Assembly: GCA_947460875.1 (NCBI GenBank)
Contig: CANHGR010000003.1
Span: 1 to 64,000 of the forward strand
DNA length: 64,000 bases
Source of the DNA: Sphingobacteriaceae bacterium
GTDB lineage: Bacteria; Bacteroidota; Bacteroidia; Sphingobacteriales; Sphingobacteriaceae
Direction of reading: 5' to 3'
How positions within the stretch are numbered: position 1 is the first letter of the stretch; each line of letters begins with the position of its first letter. A program made the position numbers and the translations under genes. The notes under the pieces were generated by a model. That model was not told where the DNA came from, searched no databases, and saw only the letters and a list, made by a program, of their open reading frames with translations. Positions 3,751-30,885 of the stretch are shown piece after piece.

Positions 3751-4791
3751 CTACTCAACTATAATCTCTACTCTACGCTTATTGGTTGAGCTACTTGCAC
3801 TAGTTAAACCTTTACGGTAATAACTTACTGCGATACGATCTGTTGCAATACCCTGATTAACAAAATAACGGTAAATCATTTTCACCTTTCTACGAGGATG
3901 AGGGCGAAAACCTATTAATCTAACAATGGAAGATGAGTTTTGGTTTAAGTGACTAGTTAAGCTAGCTAAGTCACTTTGTGCAGTTTCATTGATAAATCGA
4001 ACCCGATTTTTTTCAAAATAAACAATTCGGGTCAGTTTATTAGTTGACGCCGGATTATTGAATTTTAATAGTTTAGCTGCGGCTTTGATCTTTTCACTAG
4101 TTAACGCATTTGTGGCTAAACGTTCTTTTTTTGCAATTAAACTATCAGATTTTGCAAGCGGGTTAAATAAATAACTGCTAGGTATATCTTTTGGACGTTT
4201 ACGATTAAATGCTGGTACATGAAAACCAATATTGGTAATCAAATTGCTGGCTATTTCTTTTGAATGCCCTTCATCATATGCTGTTTGAAGATGTATAAAG
4301 CCTCCTTTATCCAAATTAAAACGAATGCCCGCTCCAAGAGGAACGCTCCAATAAGCTGCCGACTTTTTATATTGTAATAAAAACTGAACGCCTCCTGTCA
4401 AATAGGGTCTTACTCGCTCTTCGGGTCCGAAGAAATGATAAAAAGTTTCAAAGCGGGTCAAGAAAAGACTATTGCTTTTATACTGTTTTTGATCATTCAT
4501 CACTTTGCCATAAGCACCGCCAAAATCAAAACCCAAAGCCCAGTTTTCATTCAATGGCTCCATGGTTGAAAAACTTATATTTTGAAAAGAACGCTCCTTA
4601 AGAGCTGTACCTTCCTGGCAATTACAGGTATTACCCAATCGTCTGTTTAATGCAGAAAACTCTTGCACTCCATAACGAATACCCAATTTAAAGGTATCAA
4701 ACAAGGGAAGCTTTTTATTTGGAGTCTGCGCCAACAAGCCTATTGGGCTTAACAGCAAGATGATATATACATAGTGTCTCAGGTATCTCAT
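3751..4791 (-). CDS. Outer-membrane barrel with degenerate OmpA-like C-terminal domain
   Basis: A 346-residue protein with a signal peptide (YIILLLSPIGLLAQ), a region of alternating beta strands at about 30-190 that suggests a small barrel, and an OmpA-like C-terminal domain at about 235-346 (IVYFEKNRVRF ... NKRRVEIIVE). In typical OmpA domains a GHTD motif and a downstream LSxRRA arginine bind peptidoglycan. Here the first is GFRPHPRR and the second KVKMIYRYFV, so the usual diaminopimelate-binding residues are not visible. It is the third gene of the adhesin-PorP cassette, 53 bp after the PorP gene. OmpA-like proteins often accompany PorP/SprF. A role in anchoring or stabilising the export partner is an inference. 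Confidence 0.75.
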   Translation of the reverse strand: MRYLRHYVYIILLLSPIGLLAQTPNKKLPLFDTFKLGIRYGVQEFSALNRRLGNTCNCQEGTALKERSFQNISFSTMEPLNENWALGFDFGGAYGKVMNDQKQYKSNSLFLTRFETFYHFFGPEERVRPYLTGGVQFLLQYKKSAAYWSVPLGAGIRFNLDKGGFIHLQTAYDEGHSKEIASNLITNIGFHVPAFNRKRPKDIPSSYLFNPLAKSDSLIAKKERLATNALTSEKIKAAAKLLKFNNPASTNKLTRIVYFEKNRVRFINETAQSDLASLTSHLNQNSSSIVRLIGFRPHPRRKVKMIYRYFVNQGIATDRIAVSYYRKGLTSASSSTNKRRVEIIVE

Positions 4792-4844: not shown

Positions 4845-5840
4845 TTATTTTTTTCTTCTATTAAAACGATGACCCAAACTCAGCTCAAATGCATTGCGCT
4901 GGTATCCACCTGCTCTTATCCCAGATACATTTACCTCATAATGTAAGGCGATGGTGGTATTGCGTAGCTTCAAGTCTACGTATGGAATTAATGCATCTCT
5001 AATCCGATAGGCCATCCCCAAGCCAAAGGCGTTTAGATTAGCGCTGTTAAACTGCTGACTGGCACTCAATGACAACAGCTGCTCATTAGCAAGTGCCTTA
5101 AAATTGGCTATCCCAAACAGACCATATCGAATACGATTTCGCTCAAACTCATATCCAGCTTGAAAACCAATTGTTGGACTTAAGTCGAACTTGTCGCCGG
5201 AGGGTCTATTAATTAAAGGCCTCAATACATCCCTAACTGAAAATCCAATTTTCCAGGATTCCAATTCAGTTTCTTGAAATAGGGATATACCGAGATGAGA
5301 ACTAAACCAATTTAAGGGGTTTCCATTTGCCAAAGGATCTTGTGTCATTGCCCCTCCAATTGGACCATTTTGATCAAATTGATCTGGGAAACTGGCCTGA
5401 CTTAAATCTAAACGACTATTGGAATATGACCCTTGGATACTTACCGCCAGATACTGGTTGTATCCATTTAGAGGAATTGCATGAGATAAGCCTAGTACTA
5501 TATTTGAATTGTTCAAGATGTTCTGATTAGATGCATCGAATGCTACCCCCATGGTAAAATTTGTAAATGCTGAATTACTCAGAAAACTCTCCCCATCAGT
5601 TTTAATCAATATATCTACCATCGCAGCATTACTGCGATAGCCCATTACGCCTTGATAACGAACATCCCGGTGATTCAACCGAACTGCATTTTGTTTGTCC
5701 ATCTTTAAAGACGGATTATACCACATCGATAAATCTTGAATCCGCGCATAATGTAAATCTTGCGATTGAAGATTGGTTATACCCAATATGATCATTAGCA
5801 TACTTATGCCTAGCACCTTAAATAATTGATTGTGCATCAT
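4845..5840 (-). CDS. PorP/SprF family type IX secretion system membrane protein
   Basis: A 331-residue outer-membrane barrel of the PorP/SprF family. After a signal peptide (ISMLMIILGITNLQSQ) comes the family opening QDLHYARIQDLSMWYNPSL, followed by alternating beta strands and a closing strand near the C-terminus (AFELSLGHRF). In Flavobacterium the paralogue SprF is needed for secretion of the giant adhesin SprB, whose C-terminal domain is of the same type as that of the gene immediately upstream here. The spacing of only 37 bp after the adhesin stop supports co-transcription and a dedicated export or attachment role for that adhesin. The start could be either of two adjacent ATG codons. Confidence 0.9.
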   Translation of the reverse strand: MMHNQLFKVLGISMLMIILGITNLQSQDLHYARIQDLSMWYNPSLKMDKQNAVRLNHRDVRYQGVMGYRSNAAMVDILIKTDGESFLSNSAFTNFTMGVAFDASNQNILNNSNIVLGLSHAIPLNGYNQYLAVSIQGSYSNSRLDLSQASFPDQFDQNGPIGGAMTQDPLANGNPLNWFSSHLGISLFQETELESWKIGFSVRDVLRPLINRPSGDKFDLSPTIGFQAGYEFERNRIRYGLFGIANFKALANEQLLSLSASQQFNSANLNAFGLGMAYRIRDALIPYVDLKLRNTTIALHYEVNVSGIRAGGYQRNAFELSLGHRFNRRKK

Positions 5841-8800: not shown

Positions 8801-11800
8801 TCGATACTGTCCAGAATGCCGTCGCCATCACTATCCCGATCGAGGTAGTTTGGAATACCATCTCCATCGGTATCGGTGGTTCCTTCGATGGTATCAGGGA
8901 TGCCGTCGGCGTCACTATCGAGGTCCAGGTGATTTGGAATACCATCCCCATCCGTGTCCACAGGGCTTGCTGGATTAAATCCTCTTTCGATGGCATCCGA
9001 AATACCGTCGTTATCCGAATCAGTATCTAAATAATTTGGTATACCATCTCCATCGGTATCTAATAAAGACGCTCCCGTTCCTTTTTCCAAGGCATCGGTC
9101 AAGCCATCTCCATCACTATCAAGGTCACGGTAATTCGGTATTCCGTCTCCATCCGTATCGAGTGGGGTCGCGCCAGAAGGACCTTTTTCTACTGCATCGG
9201 TAATGCCATCGTTATCCGAATCCGTGTCGCGGAAGTCTGGAATTCCGTCTCCATCCGTATCTAAGATCGCCGCTCCCGTTCCACGTTCTACGTTATCTGG
9301 TATGCCGTCGTTATCCGAATCCGTATCACGGTAATCCGGTATGCCATCCCCATCGGTATCCACTGGTGTATTTGGATTTGCACCTCTTTCTAAGGCATCG
9401 GAAATACCATCCCCATCGCTGTCTGTATCATACGGATCAGGCAAGGTAGTTCCATCTGTATTTGGAGGTGTCAACCCACCATTTGCTGAAACAGGAACCC
9501 CATTTGCATCCACTGCTCCATCTACTTTTCCGTCTCCATCTACATCCGTTCCGTTTGATTCACGAACATCATTGATGCCGTCATTGTCACTGTCTGGATC
9601 GATGCGATTTGGGATGCCGTCGCCATCTGTATCACAGTCTGCCGCCGAAGGAGAGCAGGCTGCAGCCTCCACAGCATCACGGATGCCATCGTTATCATCG
9701 TCTAGGTCGTCGATGTCGTAAATGCCATCTGCATCTGTGTCGACTGGGCAACCGTTAAGATTTGCGAGTCCAACTAGCAATGGACATTGGTCTACGCTAT
9801 CGAGTACCCCATCCCCATCAGAATCAGTGTCAAGGTAATTGGGTGTACCATCTCCATCAAAATCTGTTTCACCTTCCGATAGATCTGACTTACCATCCCC
9901 ATCCGAATCCAAGTCTTTATAGTTAGGTGTACCGTCATTATCAGAATCTGTAGGTGTACAAGGTGCTGTACCTGTACATCCTACATCTTCGGTATCGTCT
10001 AAAATACCGTCGTTATCCGAATCGGTATCGCGATAATCCGGCAGACCATCACCATCCGTGTCTACATTGCCTTCTACTGAATCTGGAATCCCATCACCAT
10101 CACTATCCACTTCTTTGTAATCTGGAATCCCATCCCCATCGGTATCGAGTGGACTGTTTCCATTGATACCTCGTTCAATGGCATCTGAAATCCCATCGTT
10201 ATCACTATCCGTATCCAGGTAATTTGGCGTATCCGTACCGTCCGTATTTTCTGGATTAGCACCGTCAATTCCTTTTTCTATACTGTCCGGAATTCCATCC
10301 CCATCACTATCTAAATCGAGGTGATTTGGAACACCATCGCCGTCTGTATCCGTAGGCGCACAAGGAGCAGTACCCGTACAACCTGCATCTTCTACACCAT
10401 CTGGAATCCCATCGCCATCGCTGTCCGTATCCAAATAATCTGGTGTACCGTCGTTATCGGTATCCACTGGAGTAACCGTAGGTCCTTTTTCGATGCTGTC
10501 TGGGATGCCGTCGCCATCACTATCGAGGTCTCGGAAGTTCGGCGTGCCGTCGTTGTCGCTGTCTAGATTTCCTTCGATCGCATCGGAAATTCCGTCCCCA
10601 TCACTATCTGTATCCAAGTAATCTGGATTCGCATCGCCATCCGTATTTGCTGGAGTAGACGTTGGGCCTTTTTCAATTATATCTGAAATACCGTCCCCAT
10701 CACTATCCAAATCTCTAAAGTTTGGAATACCGTCCCCGTCCGTATCGGTAGGGGTACATGGAACAGTACCTGTGCATCCGGAATCTTCCACGCTGTCAAG
10801 AATACCGTCCCCATCACTATCCGTATCCAGGTAGTCAGGTATATTGTCCCTATCGGTATCCGTAAGCGTTGCTCCGGTTCCCTTTTCGATCGCATCTGGA
10901 ATGCCGTCGTTGTCACTATCGGCGTCCAAATAGTCTGGGATGGAGTCATTGTCTGAATCGGTCGGGGTACAAGGCAGTGTTCCAGTACAAGCTGCATCTT
11001 CGATTGCATCTGAAATGCCATCACCATCCGCGTCCAAATCTTTGTAATTTGGTGTGCCATCCCCGTCTGCATCGGTTACCCCTTCGGTGGCGTCAGGGAT
11101 ACCATCACCGTCCGAATCCAGATCTCTAAAGTTTGGAATACCATCCCCATCCGTATCGACACTACCTTCCACCGCATCGGAGATGCCATCTCCATCCGAA
11201 TCTAGATCTAGGTAATCAGGGATGTTATCCCCATCAGTATCTGCCAACGCGGCTCCAGTTCCTTTCTCGATCGCATCCGAAATGCCGTCCCCATCACTAT
11301 CAGTGTCGTATGGATTCGAAGAACCTGTTCCATCGGTGTTGGGAGGAGACAAGCCACCTGAAGCAGAGGCTGGAATGCCATTGACATCTGGAGCTCCATC
11401 CGCTTTACCATCCCTATCTACATCGGTTCCGCCCGCTTCGATGACATCTGAAATACCATCCCCATCACTATCCGTGTCTAGGATATTAGGAATGCCATCT
11501 CCATCGGTATCACAGGTTGCTGCCGAAGGCGAGCAAGCCGCTGCCTCTACCGTGTCCAAGATGCCGTCATTATCGTCATCTGAATCATCTACATCTGCGA
11601 GTCCATCCCCATCACTATCTGGAGGACAACCGTTGGTGCTGCCTAATCCATTGATTAATGGGCATACATCTACTGCGTCCAATACCCCATCCCCATCTGA
11701 ATCGAGGTCTCTAAAGTTTGGTGTACCATCTCCGTCGGTATCTACATTGCCTTCTGACTGATCTGTTTTACCATCACCATCAGAGTCTAAATCTCGGTAA

Positions 11801-14800
11801 TCCGGCGTACCATCGCCATCGGTATCGGTAGTACCTTCGGTAGCATCTGTAATGCCGTCGCCATCCGAATCCAAGTCTCTGAAATCAGGAGTGCCGTCTC
11901 CATCGGTATCAAGTGGATTAGCACCGTTTCCTTTTTCAACCGCATCTGTGATCCCATCTCCATCGCTATCTGTATCCAAGTAATCTGGGATACTGTCACC
12001 ATCTGTATCAACAGGAGTTCCTGTTGGTCCTTTTTCGATCGCATCAGAAATACCGTCTCCATCACTATCCACATCTAGGTAATTCGGCGTACCGTCTCCA
12101 TCTGTATCCGTAGGGGTACAAGGAGCTGTTCCGGAGCAACCCGCATCTTCGATGCTGTCCAAAATCCCATCCCCATCGCTGTCTGTATCCAAGTAGTTAG
12201 GAATTCCGTCCCCATCTGCATCAGCCCTACCTTCTATGTTGTCAGGTATTCCATCCCCATCACTATCTACATCTAAGTAATTTGGTGTACCGTCTCCATC
12301 GGTATCAAGTGGGCTAGCACCGTTAGATCCTTTTTCGATTGCATCCGCAATACCGTCCCCATCGCTATCTAAGTCCAGATAGTTTGGCGTACCGTCTCCA
12401 TCTGCGTCGGCCGAACCTTCTACACTATCCGGTATACCGTCGTTATCCGAATCTAGGTCTTTATAGTCCGGTGTACCATCTCCATCGGTATCAACAGGAG
12501 TTCCTGTAGGCCCTTTTTCGATTGCATCAGAAATGCCATCCCCATCGCTATCCGTATCTATATAATTCGGATTTCCATCTCCATCCGTGTCAGTTATGCC
12601 TTCAATTGCGTCCGTAATGCCGTCGCCATCAGAGTCCGTATCCCGGTAATTTGGCGTACCGTCTCCGTCCGTATCAACCGTTCCTTCGGTAGCATCTAAA
12701 ATACCGTCCCCATCACTGTCCGTATCAAGGTAATCTGGCGTGCCATCACCATCCGTATCTCGAGGTGTTGGATCTGGTCCTTTCTCAACCGCATCTGAAA
12801 TACCATCCCCATCGCTATCTAGGTCCAAATGATTTGGCACTCCATCCCCATCCGTATCAGTTGGGGTACATGGCGCAGTTCCGGTGCAGCCCGCATCTTC
12901 GAGCGCATCTGTAATGCCATCGCCATCGCTATCCAGGTCTCGGAAGTCTGGTGTCCCATCGCCATCCGTATCGGTTGGGGCACATGGTAAGACGCCGATA
13001 CAGGCCGCATCTTCTATGCTATCCGGGATCCCGTCATTATCTGAATCCAAATCCAACCAGTCGGGTGTGCCATCACCATCTGTATCAATTGGATTGGCTC
13101 CCGTTCCTTTTTCGGTGGCATCTGGAATTCCATCTCCATCGGTATCAATTGGGGTGATGGTCATACTCAAGGTACCGGTACTTGTGGCTGTGCCATCAGA
13201 AACGGTATAGGTAATCACTGGTACGGTTCCAACATACAGATTAGCAGGAGTAAAGACAAAACTTCCATCTGCATTGACTAGAATCGTCCCCACTCCAGTG
13301 ATCGTGGTCAATTGACCCACGGGGTAGCTCACCCCGCCAATACTGAATGATGCCACACTTAGGCTTGCGCCTTCTATATCCCGGTCATTGGTCAATACAT
13401 TTCCTGAAATCGCGGTATTGATTGGTGCCGAAAGCGTCTCATTCGTTACCGTTGAGGCATCGTTTACTGCGGTTACTGCAATCGTCAAATTACCACTGGC
13501 TGTTCCATTTTGGGCTTGACCATCGCTTACGGTGTATTCAATCATCGGTACAACTCCGTTGTAATTGGCTACAGGCGTAAAGGTGTAGGCTCCGGTTGCA
13601 CTGATGCTGATGGTCCCCACGTTCGGAATTAGATAAGTTCCACCAGTCGTTGGGTCTACCGCAGTAGTTACTCCTCCTACGATAAATTGAGTAATCCTTA
13701 AGTCTGACCTAGCTTGCTCAGGATCAGAATCGTTCGCCAATAAATTTCCTGTAGCAACCGCATCCTCTTGAATATTGACTGTTTCATTCACCACTACAGG
13801 AGGATCATTCACTGGAGTTACAGTGATCACGAGCGTACCGTTGGTCTGGCCACCATTGCCGTCCGAAACGGTATAAGTAAGTGTAGGGACAGTTCCGAAA
13901 AACCCTTGATTTGGGGTAAATGTGTAGGTGCCATCCGCATTTACCAGAATGGATCCTACACCAGCAAGTTCAACAATAGATCCCGCTTGATAAGTCACCC
14001 CAGCAATCGTGAATTGGCTAATGGAAAGTGTATTTCCTTCTACATCGGTATCATTAGTAAGCAGATTCAGTCCAGTGATTGCTGTATTTTCTGGGGTGCT
14101 GGTGGTTTCGTTGACTACGGTTGGAGGATCATTTACCGGGGTTACCGTTAAATTCAAGTTCGCGGTATTGGTCCCTACCCCGTCCGAAACGGTATAGGTG
14201 ATCCTCGGAACAACCCCATTGAAATTCGGGTGTGGAGTAAACGTGAATTCGCCTGTGCTTAGTGCATTGATTGTCCCTTTGCCAGGGATCGTCGCCGTTG
14301 TAGTAAAGATTCCTGTAATCCCGTCAATCGTAAATTGCGTTACCGTCAAGGTTGAACCCGCATCTAGATCGGAGTCATTCGTCAATACATTGACAGTGAC
14401 TGAAGTATCCTCTGGCGTTGTTTTATTGTCGTCGTTAACGGCAATTGGATCGTCATTTACTGCCGTAATTGTAATTGTTAAACCAGCCGTAGCTGTTGCA
14501 CCATCATTATCTGTAATTACATAATTAATTACAGGAACTACACCATTGTAATTTGCATTTGGTGTAAAAGTGTAGGTTCCGTCGGCATTGACCTTTATAA
14601 TTCCCACCCCTGAAATAGACGAAGTTGCTCCTGCTGGGTAGGTATATGTTACTCCAGCTACCACAAATGAATATTCTGTAATCACTAATGGTTTTGCTTC
14701 CGGATCAGTGTCATTGCTTAATAAGTTGCCTGTTGCACTCGTATCTTCATTAATTGTTTTGGTATCATTAACGGCCACTGGATTAGCATTAACTGGCGCT

Positions 14801-26667: not shown

Positions 26668-27421
26668 CTAAACCTGACTATTTTTAATTGTGGAAGAATT
26701 TTAAAAGAAAATAACTGCATGAATGCTACATATTGAACCGATGGCTATGGAGGATAGATTGTCGGTTGCCGTAAAAGACCTAACAGGAAAAAGTGACAAT
26801 AATCCTTTTAGATGCATAGCAAAACCATTTATTTTTTTCAGTATTATTAAGAAATGATTCAAATTCATTTAGTGTATGGCATGAATATTATTACTTATTT
26901 TTTAGCGCAATAGTTGAAAAATAACATCCCCAATAATTAAACAGCATGATTTATCTTGATGTTATTTTTGCTTTAACACAACAGAAATAACCGAAAGTTA
27001 ATTGGCAACAACTAGCTTAATTAATTGGCAGGGTCGCGAATATGATTTATAACGGTGATAAGTCAAACGGGAAGCTGACCTAGAATTGTCCAATTTTTTA
27101 TTTGTGAACAAAAAAGCCTGGATGGATTAAAAAAAGTGAAATTATAGGAAAAAATAAGACTGAATTTTAGAATATGAACTAAAATCCGTGAATGAATTAA
27201 TTTTCAAGACCTAGTACCTATGAATTGAGAAAATTAATTTTGAATATACTTTTCAAACAAAAATTAGAATCTAGAAAGGAATTAAAAATGATCATCGTTT
27301 TTACAAATTGGTCTTGTTTTGCATTTGTGAACTAAAAAGAATTGAGAATGATAAAAAATTGGAGTCATTTTAATAATTAGAACTTCTTTTAAAGAATTGA
27401 ACTAATTTCAGAGGAAGATAT
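26668..27421. other. 754-bp AT-rich divergent intergenic region
   Basis: It lies between the divergently transcribed giant adhesin and the first membrane AraC-type gene, so both promoters should be here. No coding sequence is visible. Degenerate copies of a TGAACTAAAA-like word occur near 27100, 27172 and 27323, all in the half closer to the regulator gene. Confidence 0.6.
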
Positions 27422-28591
27422 ATGGTATTTTATTTTGCGCTGACAACAATTATTCTCACGGCGGTTTTAACCGTGCACAATTTCAGATTCAATAAAAACT
27501 GTATTTATTTAGCTGGTTATTTACTGCCCATCAGCCTGTTTGTAATAGCCAACTACTATTTTTTTGAAAGTGATTCAGTTAAAGGTATTGCCATTCTATT
27601 TGGGCATGCTGCGCCATTTTATCACTTATCAGCACCCATGTTATACTTTTACACCAAAGGCACTATTGATGATACATGGAAATTTGGCTATTCAGACTAT
27701 TGGCATTTTATACCCTTTATACTCGGTACAATAAATATCAGTCCCTATTACTTTGTTGATTTCAGCCAAAAGATTGTCTACGCCGAAAAAATGATTGCAG
27801 ATCCAAACTTTCATCGCTCAATAGACATAACCCTTCTTTACCCCAACTACATTCAGGCTCTTGGTAGGCCATTTCTGATTTTAATCTATTCAATAGGCAG
27901 TTTGATATATTTAATACAGCAGAAAGCCTATTTTCTGAGCACTAAGCCTCTTGAAATTAAAAAAACCACCTACCGATGGTTAGAATTTTTGACAGTCAAT
28001 GCAATCTTGATATCAATCATGTATTTAATTGTTACGTATAATTATTTTTCATATAATTTAGAAACAAGAGACCAAATAGTCAATAATGTATATTCCATCA
28101 TATCAAAGATTTTGATCTTCATGGTACCTGCAATTCTCTTGTTTTACCCTCAGGTAATTTATGGCCATTCAGTAACTATCACAAGCAACATCGGCCTAGG
28201 CAAAAAATCTATAAAACAAAATAAGAACAGTCAGAATAAATACAATTCGCAATTAGCTAAACGCTTGATGAGTATAATTAATGACGAAAATTTATACTTA
28301 AGTCCTGATTTTTCATTAGATACATTGGCGCAAAGATTAGACGTCCCTAAACACCGTTTATATCCATGCTTTAATACTATTTTAAAGAAAAAATTTAGTG
28401 AATTAAGAACTGAGCTGCGAATTAACTATGTGAAAAATTTACTCCTTTCAGAAGAGTTTAATGCTGTATCGATGGAAGGTATTTGGACAAAAGCAGGATT
28501 TGCTTCAAAAACCAACTTTTTTACCACCTTTAAAGAAGAAACAGGGTTTACGCCATTGGAATTTATAAAACTGAAAAAAGATAAAAAATAA
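27422..28591 (+). CDS. Membrane-bound AraC-family regulator (7TM-like N-terminus), copy 1
   Basis: A 389-residue protein. Residues 1-250 hold about seven hydrophobic segments (for example FYFALTTIILTAVLTV, YLLPISLFVIANYYFF, ILIFMVPAILLFYP). A charged linker follows, and residues about 285-389 carry an AraC-type double helix-turn-helix with the conserved tail GFASKTNFFTTFKEETGFTPLEFI. Such Bacteroidota proteins combine a membrane sensor and a DNA-binding domain in one chain. The signal and target are unknown. It overlaps the next, paralogous gene by one base (TAATG), so the two are co-translated. The giant adhesin operon diverges from it and is a possible target, by position only. Confidence 0.85.
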   Translation: MVFYFALTTIILTAVLTVHNFRFNKNCIYLAGYLLPISLFVIANYYFFESDSVKGIAILFGHAAPFYHLSAPMLYFYTKGTIDDTWKFGYSDYWHFIPFILGTINISPYYFVDFSQKIVYAEKMIADPNFHRSIDITLLYPNYIQALGRPFLILIYSIGSLIYLIQQKAYFLSTKPLEIKKTTYRWLEFLTVNAILISIMYLIVTYNYFSYNLETRDQIVNNVYSIISKILIFMVPAILLFYPQVIYGHSVTITSNIGLGKKSIKQNKNSQNKYNSQLAKRLMSIINDENLYLSPDFSLDTLAQRLDVPKHRLYPCFNTILKKKFSELRTELRINYVKNLLLSEEFNAVSMEGIWTKAGFASKTNFFTTFKEETGFTPLEFIKLKKDKK

Positions 28592-29766
28592 TGACTTTAT
28601 ATTTTGGAGTACTCACCTTAATTCTGACGCTTATATCAACTTTTTATAATGCAAAGGTTAATAAAGCTATATTCTATTTGTCGGGATTTTTGATATCAAT
28701 TACTATGTACGGCCTGGCTCATTATTATTATTTTAGTGGTGAGTCGGTATTTATTTTTAGCATCATAAATATTCACTTTTTGCCAGTATACTATTTATCA
28801 GGGCCCATGCTTTTTTTCTATGTACGAAGTACCCTAAAAGATAATTCACAATTATCAAAAATTGACCTTTTGCATTTCCTTCCTTTTTTAATTGGCTTGA
28901 TTTATATTATACCTTATTCATTTCAAAGTTTCGAATTTAAAATTGATTTTAATACCAAACTTCTAGCTGATAATGGGCTTATAAAATCAACACATATAAA
29001 ATCTTTCTTTCCCAATTATATCAATCTTGTAGCTAGGCCAGTATTTTTATTATCCTATGCGCTAGGAAGTGCTTATCTCATTTTTAAGTATTCAAGGTTT
29101 AAAAAACGGAAATATTCACCATTGATTCAAAGAAATAACATGGTTAAATGGCTGAAAACTGTTGTACTGATTGCCTTCATTTTAAGCTTTTTTTACATCA
29201 TCATCACCTACAAATATTTATCCACGAACCTGGTTGTTAAACAATTGATCAATGAAATGGAAGTGAGTATACTCGCAGGTATTTGCTACTGCATTATACC
29301 TATTTGTATTTTAATATTTCCGAGTGTTTTATATGGCATTCCTAGAGTATCAAAAGGCCCAAGCAAGTATTTAGATGAAAGCAACAGACAAGCTATTCTT
29401 CAATCAAATGAACCATTGGAAGCAACTGCAAAAGATATTTTAAACTTTTTAAATGAATCTGAAGCATATTTAAATCCTAAATTTAGTATCCAGGACTTGA
29501 TTAACGGTTTGGGGATACCTAAGCACCATGTTTATTATTGTTTTAATAATATCATCCAAAATAAATTCACAATCATAAAATCAGAGCTCAGGGTCAACTA
29601 CGCTAAAAAATTACTCTTATCGAGTAAAGCAAAAGACTTGACTATGGAAGGAATTGGGATGGAATCAGGCTTTGCTTCAAAATCAAATTTCTTTGCTGTT
29701 TTTAAAGAATTTACCGGAAAAACTCCTTTAGAATTTATTGAGGCAGAGCAAGTTGAAAAGCACTAA
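28591..29766 (+). CDS. Membrane-bound AraC-family regulator (7TM-like N-terminus), copy 2
   Basis: A 391-residue paralogue of the preceding gene with the same layout: about seven N-terminal membrane segments, a soluble linker, and an AraC-type helix-turn-helix at the C-terminus (GMESGFASKSNFFAVFKEFTGKTPLEFI). Shared landmarks include the YHLSAPMLYFY / YYLSGPMLFFY segment and the GIPKHHVYYCFNNII / DVPKHRLYPCFNTIL first helix-turn-helix. The ATG overlaps the upstream stop codon by one base. The pair probably arose by tandem duplication and may form a heteromeric regulator, which is an inference. Confidence 0.85.
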   Translation: MTLYFGVLTLILTLISTFYNAKVNKAIFYLSGFLISITMYGLAHYYYFSGESVFIFSIINIHFLPVYYLSGPMLFFYVRSTLKDNSQLSKIDLLHFLPFLIGLIYIIPYSFQSFEFKIDFNTKLLADNGLIKSTHIKSFFPNYINLVARPVFLLSYALGSAYLIFKYSRFKKRKYSPLIQRNNMVKWLKTVVLIAFILSFFYIIITYKYLSTNLVVKQLINEMEVSILAGICYCIIPICILIFPSVLYGIPRVSKGPSKYLDESNRQAILQSNEPLEATAKDILNFLNESEAYLNPKFSIQDLINGLGIPKHHVYYCFNNIIQNKFTIIKSELRVNYAKKLLLSSKAKDLTMEGIGMESGFASKSNFFAVFKEFTGKTPLEFIEAEQVEKH

Positions 29767-30519
29767 AAATGCTAAAAAGTGATTGGCGAAACCTTAGCTA
29801 GAACCAAGTTATATTTTTTTTGTAAACAAGCAAAGCCTGGAAAATTGGATAGTTTAGCTAACTAACAGATGCTGGTGCAGCTGACTCCTCGGAAAAAACC
29901 GAGCATTCATAATGGAGGTTTCTTTAATTACTTATCAGTTCCAACAAAGCAATTAATAAATTGATTGCATCCAAGTGAATAATTTATGCGATTTTTAAAT
30001 AGTCAAACTGTATGTCTTCGAACTAAAGTGGACTAACTCTTAAGGAGTGTTTTCAATTAACTTAGAGCTAACCTATTTACGTTACTGATGTTGAAATTTC
30101 TCCTTTTCAGTTTTTCATAATCCTCCTTTATTTTTTAACTAATTCAGTCCACTTGTTGCGGACGATTTACAAATTTCAAAAACTATGGAAAATATATGAA
30201 AAATAAAGAAAAAATGAGATAGCACTAAAAAGCATCCCAGATTGAATATCAATCAAAAAAAAGAAACAGAATGAAATACGGTCTTTATAACCTACAAGCA
30301 GAGGGTCAAGGGCGACCCATAGCTCCAGACTAAACACCCTGAAATTAACTCGTTGACTGCTTAAGCGCAGGATAAAATACCAATTCGAAATATTATATTT
30401 AAGTTCTCCAAAGTCGGCTAACCTAGATAAGGAAGAAATCAACACCTGTATCCATGGATATAGATGTTAATGATGTAAATAGATGATATATAAAGACTGT
30501 TCATTTTAATTTTCAAGTT
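29767..30519. other. 753-bp intergenic region without a convincing gene
   Basis: It contains a small palindrome, CTCGG-AAAAAA-CCGAG, near 29887-29905 after the regulator pair, a short segment bounded by inverted repeats at 30026-30154, and otherwise AT-rich sequence. An 89-codon minus-strand frame (30176-30445) has no family features and is probably chance. Confidence 0.55.
30026..30154. mobile_element. Possible IS-derived scar or MITE-like segment with 9-bp inverted ends
   Basis: AAGTGGACT at 30026-30034 and its exact inverse AGTCCACTT at 30146-30154 bound 129 bp. Inside, read on the minus strand, an AAAGGAGGATTATGAAAAAC start region is followed by a shifted frame reading KRRNFNIS. This recalls the KRRNFxxxFKAKVALE opening of some IS3-type OrfA proteins. 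No transposase remains, and the identification is tentative. Confidence 0.35.
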
Positions 30520-30885
30520 GTGCAAAAAAGGATACTAATTTTTGACGATGATATAGACATACTTTCTATATGTAGCTTTATCCTCGAAGAGCAACACTGG
30601 GAGGTTCACACATCTACAAACTGTAATAATATTATCGAAAAAGTCAGAAAGGTTAACCCAGATATAATATTGATGGACAACTGGATTCCAGATACTGGCG
30701 GAATTGTGGCAACGCAAATGCTAAAAAATGACCCTGACCTAAAGAAAATTGGCGTGATCTACTTTTCTGCAAATAATGATATTGAAACCTTGACTAAAGA
30801 AGCGGGCGCCGATACCTTTTTAGCCAAGCCATTTGATATTGTTGACCTTGAAAAGGCGATTAACGGCTTAATAAATAAAATCTAG
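30520..30885 (+). CDS. Single-domain response regulator (receiver only)
   Basis: A 121-residue receiver domain with a GTG start. The acidic pocket is at D9-D11 (IFDDDID), the likely phospho-acceptor is D53 (LMDNWIPD), the conserved Ser/Thr is S83 (YFSANND) and the lysine is K103 (LAKPFD). No output domain follows, so it would act by phosphotransfer or protein contact. No histidine kinase lies nearby. It ends 10 bp before the convergent recO gene. Its partner and role are unknown. Confidence 0.85.
   Translation: MQKRILIFDDDIDILSICSFILEEQHWEVHTSTNCNNIIEKVRKVNPDIILMDNWIPDTGGIVATQMLKNDPDLKKIGVIYFSANNDIETLTKEAGADTFLAKPFDIVDLEKAINGLINKI

Follow-up and report, generated by a model that had tools for sequence, protein, structure and literature searches.

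Genes A and B of the window (the whole 64,000-nucleotide stretch of DNA analysed here) encode a tandem of AraC-type regulators, each with a predicted seven-helix membrane domain, and we lean towards the reading that they are a membrane one-component receptor pair, probably a heterodimer, that controls both itself and the divergent giant adhesin operon. The architecture of the proteins, the conservation of the tandem, its frequent linkage to adhesin genes and a conserved cis element can be read from the sequence itself; binding, the assignment of half-sites, the type of dimer, the direction of regulation and the signal are what we infer.

The regulator pair and the divergent operon

The two genes (Table 1) meet at the junction TAATG, where the TAA stop codon of A (28589–28591) overlaps the ATG of B by one base, and their products are 38% identical from end to end (391 columns, BLASTP E 3e-88). 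Both proteins are AraC/XylS-type regulators as judged by HTH_18, which scores above the curated Pfam cut-off of 33.6 bits in A (residues 302–382, 41.6 bits, E 1.5e-10) and in B (residues 307–383, 41.5 bits, E 1.7e-10). In Pfam and NCBIfam no family matched the N-terminal ~250 residues of either protein above cut-off. The 2.2-Mb genome of the window contains five HTH_18 matches, A and B included, and the similarity of the other three proteins to A is confined to the HTH part.

Table 1. Features of the window at the regulator pair and the divergent operon
Feature	Positions	Strand	Details
346-aa protein	3751–4791	-	OmpA similarity sub-threshold; next after the PorP/SprF gene
PorP/SprF-type outer-membrane protein	4845–5840	-	PorP_SprF E 1.6e-19; next after the giant gene
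Giant adhesin-like protein, T9SS type B	5878–26667	-	6929 aa; TSP3 repeats, CHU_C signal; divergent from A
Shared divergent intergenic region	26668–27421	.	754 bp, between the giant gene and A
Element copy 1	27087–27180	+	TGTCC-N14-GAACA at 27087–27110; GAACT at 27176–27180
Element copy 2	27310–27403	+	GGTCT-N14-GAACT at 27310–27333; further box at 27359–27367
Gene A	27422–28591	+	389 aa; 7TM domain ~residues 1–248, then C-terminal AraC-type (HTH_18) domain
Gene B	28591–29766	+	391 aa; paralogue of A, same architecture

AlphaFold2 models of A and B place seven long helices ahead of the DNA-binding part, with modest confidence (mean pLDDT 69.2 and 69.8, respectively); hydropathy analysis gave five segments in A and seven in B at a cut-off of 1.4, and five and four at 1.6. 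The loop charges of both proteins mostly agree with an N-out/C-in topology, loop 5 carrying eight Lys and Arg residues in B and five in A. The preliminary description of a paralogous pair with about seven membrane segments, a C-terminal AraC domain and a one-base overlap is confirmed by the open reading frames, BLASTP, HTH_18 and the AlphaFold2 models taken together.

We compared the membrane domain with known structures. Foldseek found no match to the B model below E 0.001, the GPCR rows standing at E 0.29 or worse, and with the 7TM profile a PDB sequence search at E up to 1 came back empty. When the Foldseek candidates for the B model were realigned with VIA-align, 49 of the 50 rows shown were GPCRs or GPCR complexes by title, the title of 7br3 being uninformative; the best match reached Z 14.6 with 233 residues aligned at an rmsd of 4.2, a score to be read with the caveat that, for helical bundles, values up to about Z 13 may reflect no more than the arrangement of the helices. 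Sequence identity between the B model and GPCRs was 5–12%. The VIA-align scores are suggestive, not proof, of a GPCR-like arrangement of the membrane domain, a helical bundle in a model of modest confidence.

The genes divergent from A constitute a putative T9SS type B adhesin operon, as indicated by the CHU_C C-terminus of the giant protein (39.4 bits against a Pfam cut-off of 27) and the adjacent PorP/SprF gene (70.9 bits against 22.3). The position of the 346-aa protein is taken in two other genomes by OmpA-ended proteins of 640 aa (G835) and 643 aa (the Flavobacterium sp. Ww15 MAG, whose divergent run consists of a 6739-aa open frame, PorP and then the OmpA-ended protein). That A and B diverge from a giant adhesin operon, as had been proposed, is borne out by the 6929-aa CHU_C/TSP3 gene followed by PorP/SprF. 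Among nine genomes searched with the N-terminus of the giant protein, the sole other match (67%) was a 10660-aa open frame in G091 (contig C31, L098–L100), and G128 gave none. This open frame contains two copies of the N-terminal domain, at 67% and 39% identity, and its contig has no 7TM-AraC match, which counts against a simple pairing of such giants with the regulators.

Conservation of the tandem and linkage to adhesin genes

Relatives were sought with a profile of the membrane domain (A1), the matches to which form a sharply separate group. The searches of the order, the class and the genus of the Ww15 MAG scored at most 6–9 candidates per genome, so that members may be missed and the counts are lower bounds: in the order (400 genomes, threshold 1e-25) the members in at least four genomes had E <1e-90 and the other matches listed stood at 5.4e-29 or weaker, in the class (395 genomes, threshold 1e-25) the matches listed comprised only the genome of the window and one distant match, and in the Ww15 genus (E up to 1e-30) at least 23 of 299 genomes matched. 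At E up to 1e-15, matches occurred in three of 20 genomes in the genus of G091 and in five of six in that of G046, two in each genus with members below 1e-90.

The A–B tandem is found in four genomes, those of the window, G128 (L041), the Ww15 MAG (L042) and G091 (L044), with junctions that range from a 4-base overlap to a gap of 10 bases. The L041 proteins are 87% (A) and 83% (B) identical to those of the window; L043 duplicates the record of L041 and was dropped. Maximum-likelihood analysis of 49 proteins puts the four A proteins in one clade and the four B proteins in another (support 100/99 for each). By these comparisons the pair is old and conserved.

Linkage was surveyed at all 35 loci with a membrane-domain score of at least 110 bits, the window included and weaker matches excluded (L078 is the continuation of the second L077 locus). 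Three genes upstream and two downstream of each regulator were viewed, and Pfam was run on 17 neighbour proteins. At two of the 35 loci (L074 and L080) the contig end was reached first. A large secreted repeat or adhesin-like gene, as classed by eye, is immediately divergent at 16 of the 33 determinable loci, namely the window, L042, L044–L047, both L062 loci, L063, L073, the first L077 locus, L081, L082, L084, L088 and L096. Several of these neighbours leave the contig or the fetched stretch, and those at both L062 loci and at L063 are interrupted by runs of N. The other 17 loci have no divergent adhesin (L041, L072, L075, L076, the second L077 locus, L079, L083, L085–L087 and L089–L095). The second regulator copy in G1000, at L096 (9882–10346), is in fragments with several stops and lies beside a large gene of cadherin/Ig type.

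Pfam assignments among the neighbours included CHU_C (window), Por_Secre_tail (L088; sub-threshold in L077), SprB repeats (L084), laminin-G/fn3 (L081, L082), F5/8C (L044), invasin/fn3/TSP3 (L047), bacterial Ig/cadherin (L096) and FG-GAP/laminin-G (L073); the start of the Ww15 giant gave a sub-threshold match only. A home-made CTD profile found 11 proteins, and its labels were visible during the classing by eye; the nine loci with a CHU_C signal within the divergent run, the window and eight others, rest on Pfam. PorP_SprF then follows at all nine; at L082 the CHU_C signal belongs to a small gene of its own that follows the large gene. The background was 288 CHU_C matches in ~65 Mb of the 23 genomes searched, a set that left out the genomes of five loci (L091–L095), and at an assumed ~900 genes per Mb the chance expectation is about 0.2 CHU_C neighbours among 33 genes.

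As a control we took the 18 more distant 7TM-AraC genes with a membrane-domain score of 50–110 bits and a length of at least 340 aa, of which L055–L058 look like orthologues. None of the 18 has a divergent adhesin; their divergent neighbours of at least 700 aa are two, a glycosidase-like protein (L053) and a histidine kinase (L052). Among 192 other ORFs of at least 300 aa, eight have any divergent neighbour of at least 700 aa. Judged by these counts, the linkage of regulator to adhesin is well above background. Conserved linkage to adhesin operons, which the preliminary description had put forward as a check, is thus present without being universal (16 of 33 loci adhesin-facing, and the tandem itself in four genomes).

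Several other neighbours were observed. Near the distant regulators L053 (7018–11028), L060 and L067, large CTD-bearing proteins and ~300-aa genes lie on the same strand, a possible alternative geometry of the adhesin link. The single-gene relative at L072 (2369–3595), which is near A and B in the tree, stands tail to tail with an OmpA-ended protein, the end of which resembles that of the last gene of the Ww15 adhesin operon. In the window, a single-domain response regulator with a GTG start (30520–30885) is encoded ~750 bp after B; in L042 a 201-aa protein that by eye resembles a receiver-LuxR regulator comes directly after B, and next to the distant regulator L048 stands a receiver-like protein of 121 aa. 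In one genus, four genomes (L055–L058) have a more distant single 7TM-AraC gene within similar gene clusters, where it comes after a gene that by eye resembles an HscB-type co-chaperone.

Predicted operators

A block around TTTGTGAAC is common to the intergenic regions of the four pair loci. In 941,369 fetched bases the pattern TTTGTGAAC[AT]-N40-50-GAACT has four matches, one upstream of each A and none elsewhere, as compared with a mean of 0.10 and a maximum of 1 in 30 first-order simulations; since the pattern was derived from the pair loci, what is informative is that other loci lack it. Pairwise alignments of these regions beat all 300 shuffles for four of the six pairs, and the two weak alignments, of the window with L042 and with L044, had scores reached by 5 and 28 of 300 shuffles, respectively. 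Copy 2 of the element has counterparts upstream of A in all four pair loci, and in the window it includes GAACT boxes at 27380–27384 and 27399–27403, 19 bp apart. Copy 1 is degenerate and closer to the giant gene, and its boxes, like those of copy 2, are spaced by 70 bp.

Within the element, an asymmetric repeat, [AGT]GTC[CT]-N14-GAAC[AT], is present in all five copies upstream of A (twice in the window, once each in L041, L042 and L044), with the GAAC half nearer A every time. In L041 there is also a sixth copy, on the 3' side of B. This regular expression alone is unspecific (21 matches against a simulated mean of 11.7 and a maximum of 19), and a de novo repeat scan of the pair loci gave nothing above two of four. 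TAnnTTTG is the -7 box of Bacteroidota, and because the element contains TTTG, some of its sequence may belong to a promoter; the window has no TAnnTTTG directed towards the giant gene.

Downstream of B in L041, an inverted counterpart of window positions 27085–27331 occupies bases 11608–11855 (68% over 251 columns, E 6.6e-27). Its alignment scores 171, where 300 shuffles reached at most 85, and 122 bp of contig remain beyond it. The adhesin-side region therefore survived an inversion, and A retained its own copy of the element. The final part of B and the sequence immediately after it (29753–29843), which includes a T-run and is possibly a terminator, are also kept in L041 (~79–83% over 80–92 columns).

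Single-gene relatives have symmetric repeats. In the sister group, a scan of all 5-mers and spacings ranked AGTTC-N15-GAACT first, in five of seven upstream regions, with unrelated repeats and six rounds of shuffling reaching at most three. Seven of its eight matches in 941 kb are at sister-group loci, and the eighth is inside an unrelated ORF; the match in L085 is on the 3' side of the regulator, and that in L086 falls within a predicted ORF of 99 aa. A Flavobacterium group that is partly adhesin-linked has TGTCC-N16-GGACA in L073, L074, L075, L081 and L088 and the N15 form in L063, in all six loci 51–87 bp upstream of the predicted regulator start. These six account for half of the twelve TGTCC-N15/16-GGACA matches; three more are inside ORFs and three are intergenic, on the 3' side of the more distant regulators L051, L059 and L060. 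At five of eight loci checked (L073, L074, L063, L088 and the first L062 locus) the repeat sits between outward-facing TAnnTTTG boxes. Of the other three, L081 has regulator-facing boxes that overlap the repeat or come before it, and L075 and the second L062 locus each have a box on a single side of the repeat. De novo scans of L077/L082/L083 and of L045–L047 gave no clear operator. The pair element looks like an asymmetric version of these symmetric repeats.

Three columns of the AraC domain (W355, T364 and F367 in A numbering) fully split A and its sisters (10 proteins) from the other groups (18), and positions 364 and 367 fall in what we take for the second recognition helix. The B proteins compared (three, that of L042 being excluded for its altered end) have G, S and F at these columns, the type of the other groups at two of three. 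The columns differ in a way that matches the DNA, which suggests that A reads the GAAC half and B the GTCY half, a correlation that may also reflect shared ancestry. The asymmetric element, the differences between the DNA-binding domains and the separate clades are indirect signs that A and B probably form a heterodimer.

Proposed mechanism and comparison with known systems

In the mechanism that we favour, the seven-helix domain (N-out, C-in) would sense an envelope or extracellular signal and hand it directly to the cytoplasmic AraC-type DNA-binding domain. A and B would work together, most likely as a heterodimer, with A bound to the GAAC half and B to the GTCY half of the asymmetric inverted repeat, two copies of which lie between the pair and the adhesin, and from this repeat would regulate themselves as well as the divergent T9SS adhesin–PorP operon. 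As related regulators are often beside giant adhesin genes and have a common DNA element, A and B probably switch such adhesins on or off. Only tentatively do we extend this to a GPCR-like seven-helix receptor fused to an AraC output, working as an obligate A–B heterodimer with one operator half per subunit and anchoring the adhesin promoter at the membrane where the adhesin is exported, while the related homodimers and palindromes would make up a lineage-specific switch code for T9SS adhesin operons.

We consider it somewhat unlikely that A and B are instead two separate homodimers, or an activator and its antagonist, at separate sites of the region. The window does have two element copies and extra GAACT boxes 19 bp apart, and the single-gene relatives are presumably homodimers on palindromes; yet the box 1 repeat is asymmetric and in the same orientation in all five copies upstream of A, and the near-fused tandem order recurs in four genomes. 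The pair and its relatives might, less probably still, regulate only themselves or distant genes, with the adhesin linkage reflecting a loose clustering of envelope genes. The 17 of 33 loci that lack a divergent adhesin fit this idea, as do the TGTCC repeat of L075, which has no adhesin neighbour, and the short distance (51–87 bp) of such repeats from the regulator start at six loci. Against it stand a linkage well above background and seen at none of the 18 distant 7TM-AraC genes, the position of the repeat between outward-facing TAnnTTTG boxes at five of eight loci, and the adhesin-side region kept in L041 despite the inversion.

Proteolytic control is known for other membrane regulators, and the linker at ~248–273 is of low confidence in both AlphaFold2 models, features that would suit a DNA-binding domain freed by proteolysis from a membrane domain serving as a mere tether with a switch. 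No positive sign of this emerged among the neighbours viewed (three genes upstream and two downstream), and we regard it as quite improbable. The earlier interpretation of A and B as adhesin-linked heterodimeric regulators is, on the genomic evidence, partly supported.

To our knowledge, little is understood of how Bacteroidota select, among their many T9SS adhesins, those that are expressed. The pair suggests that adhesins have dedicated membrane regulators encoded close by, with predicted operators, so that adhesin choice becomes testable at the level of individual promoters. How a polytopic membrane protein finds DNA is an open problem for which the pair provides a case, and together with its relatives it forms a natural series in which presumed homodimers and a presumed heterodimer go with DNA sites that match them. 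Among open-licence PMC full texts we found apparently no paper on these 7TM-AraC regulators.

The best-studied transmembrane transcription regulators (TTRs), those of the ToxR/CadC/TcpP type, have one membrane helix and a winged HTH (Trans_reg_C), whereas A and B have seven predicted helices and an AraC-type domain; with no Trans_reg_C match in Pfam and seven helices predicted, assignment to the ToxR/CadC subfamily was rejected. 7TMR-DISM receptors are defined by the Pfam 7TMR-DISM membrane or extracellular domain, and none was listed for A or B at E up to 10, a range in which HMMER drops most matches above ~0.1. TTRs at large are one-component, membrane-fixed regulators with a direct DNA-binding output and were found to be enriched in Bacteroidota in a 2023 census (PMC10269533), the main text of which does not contain the word AraC. 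By prediction A and B resemble them in being one-component and membrane-fixed with a direct DNA-binding output, and each has its DNA-binding domain and membrane helices within one chain, as TTRs do.

Overlapping gene pairs are likewise described for VtrA/VtrC, an obligate heterodimer, and for MarT/FidL, which regulate the neighbouring MisL autotransporter gene (PMC9214523). In those pairs the DNA-binding domain is on one partner and the sensor on the other, whereas A and B each carry both. The adhesin and PorP-like neighbour of the window operon are paralleled by SprB–SprF, in which SprF binds SprB, and by other type B CTD–PorP systems, and the transcription regulators named alongside these systems are PorX, PorY and SigP (PMC9143113), whereas A and B are membrane AraC proteins. 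The pair is known in kind, as TTRs, and differs in the predicted seven-helix domain, the AraC output, the presence of a DNA-binding domain on both partners and the link to adhesins.
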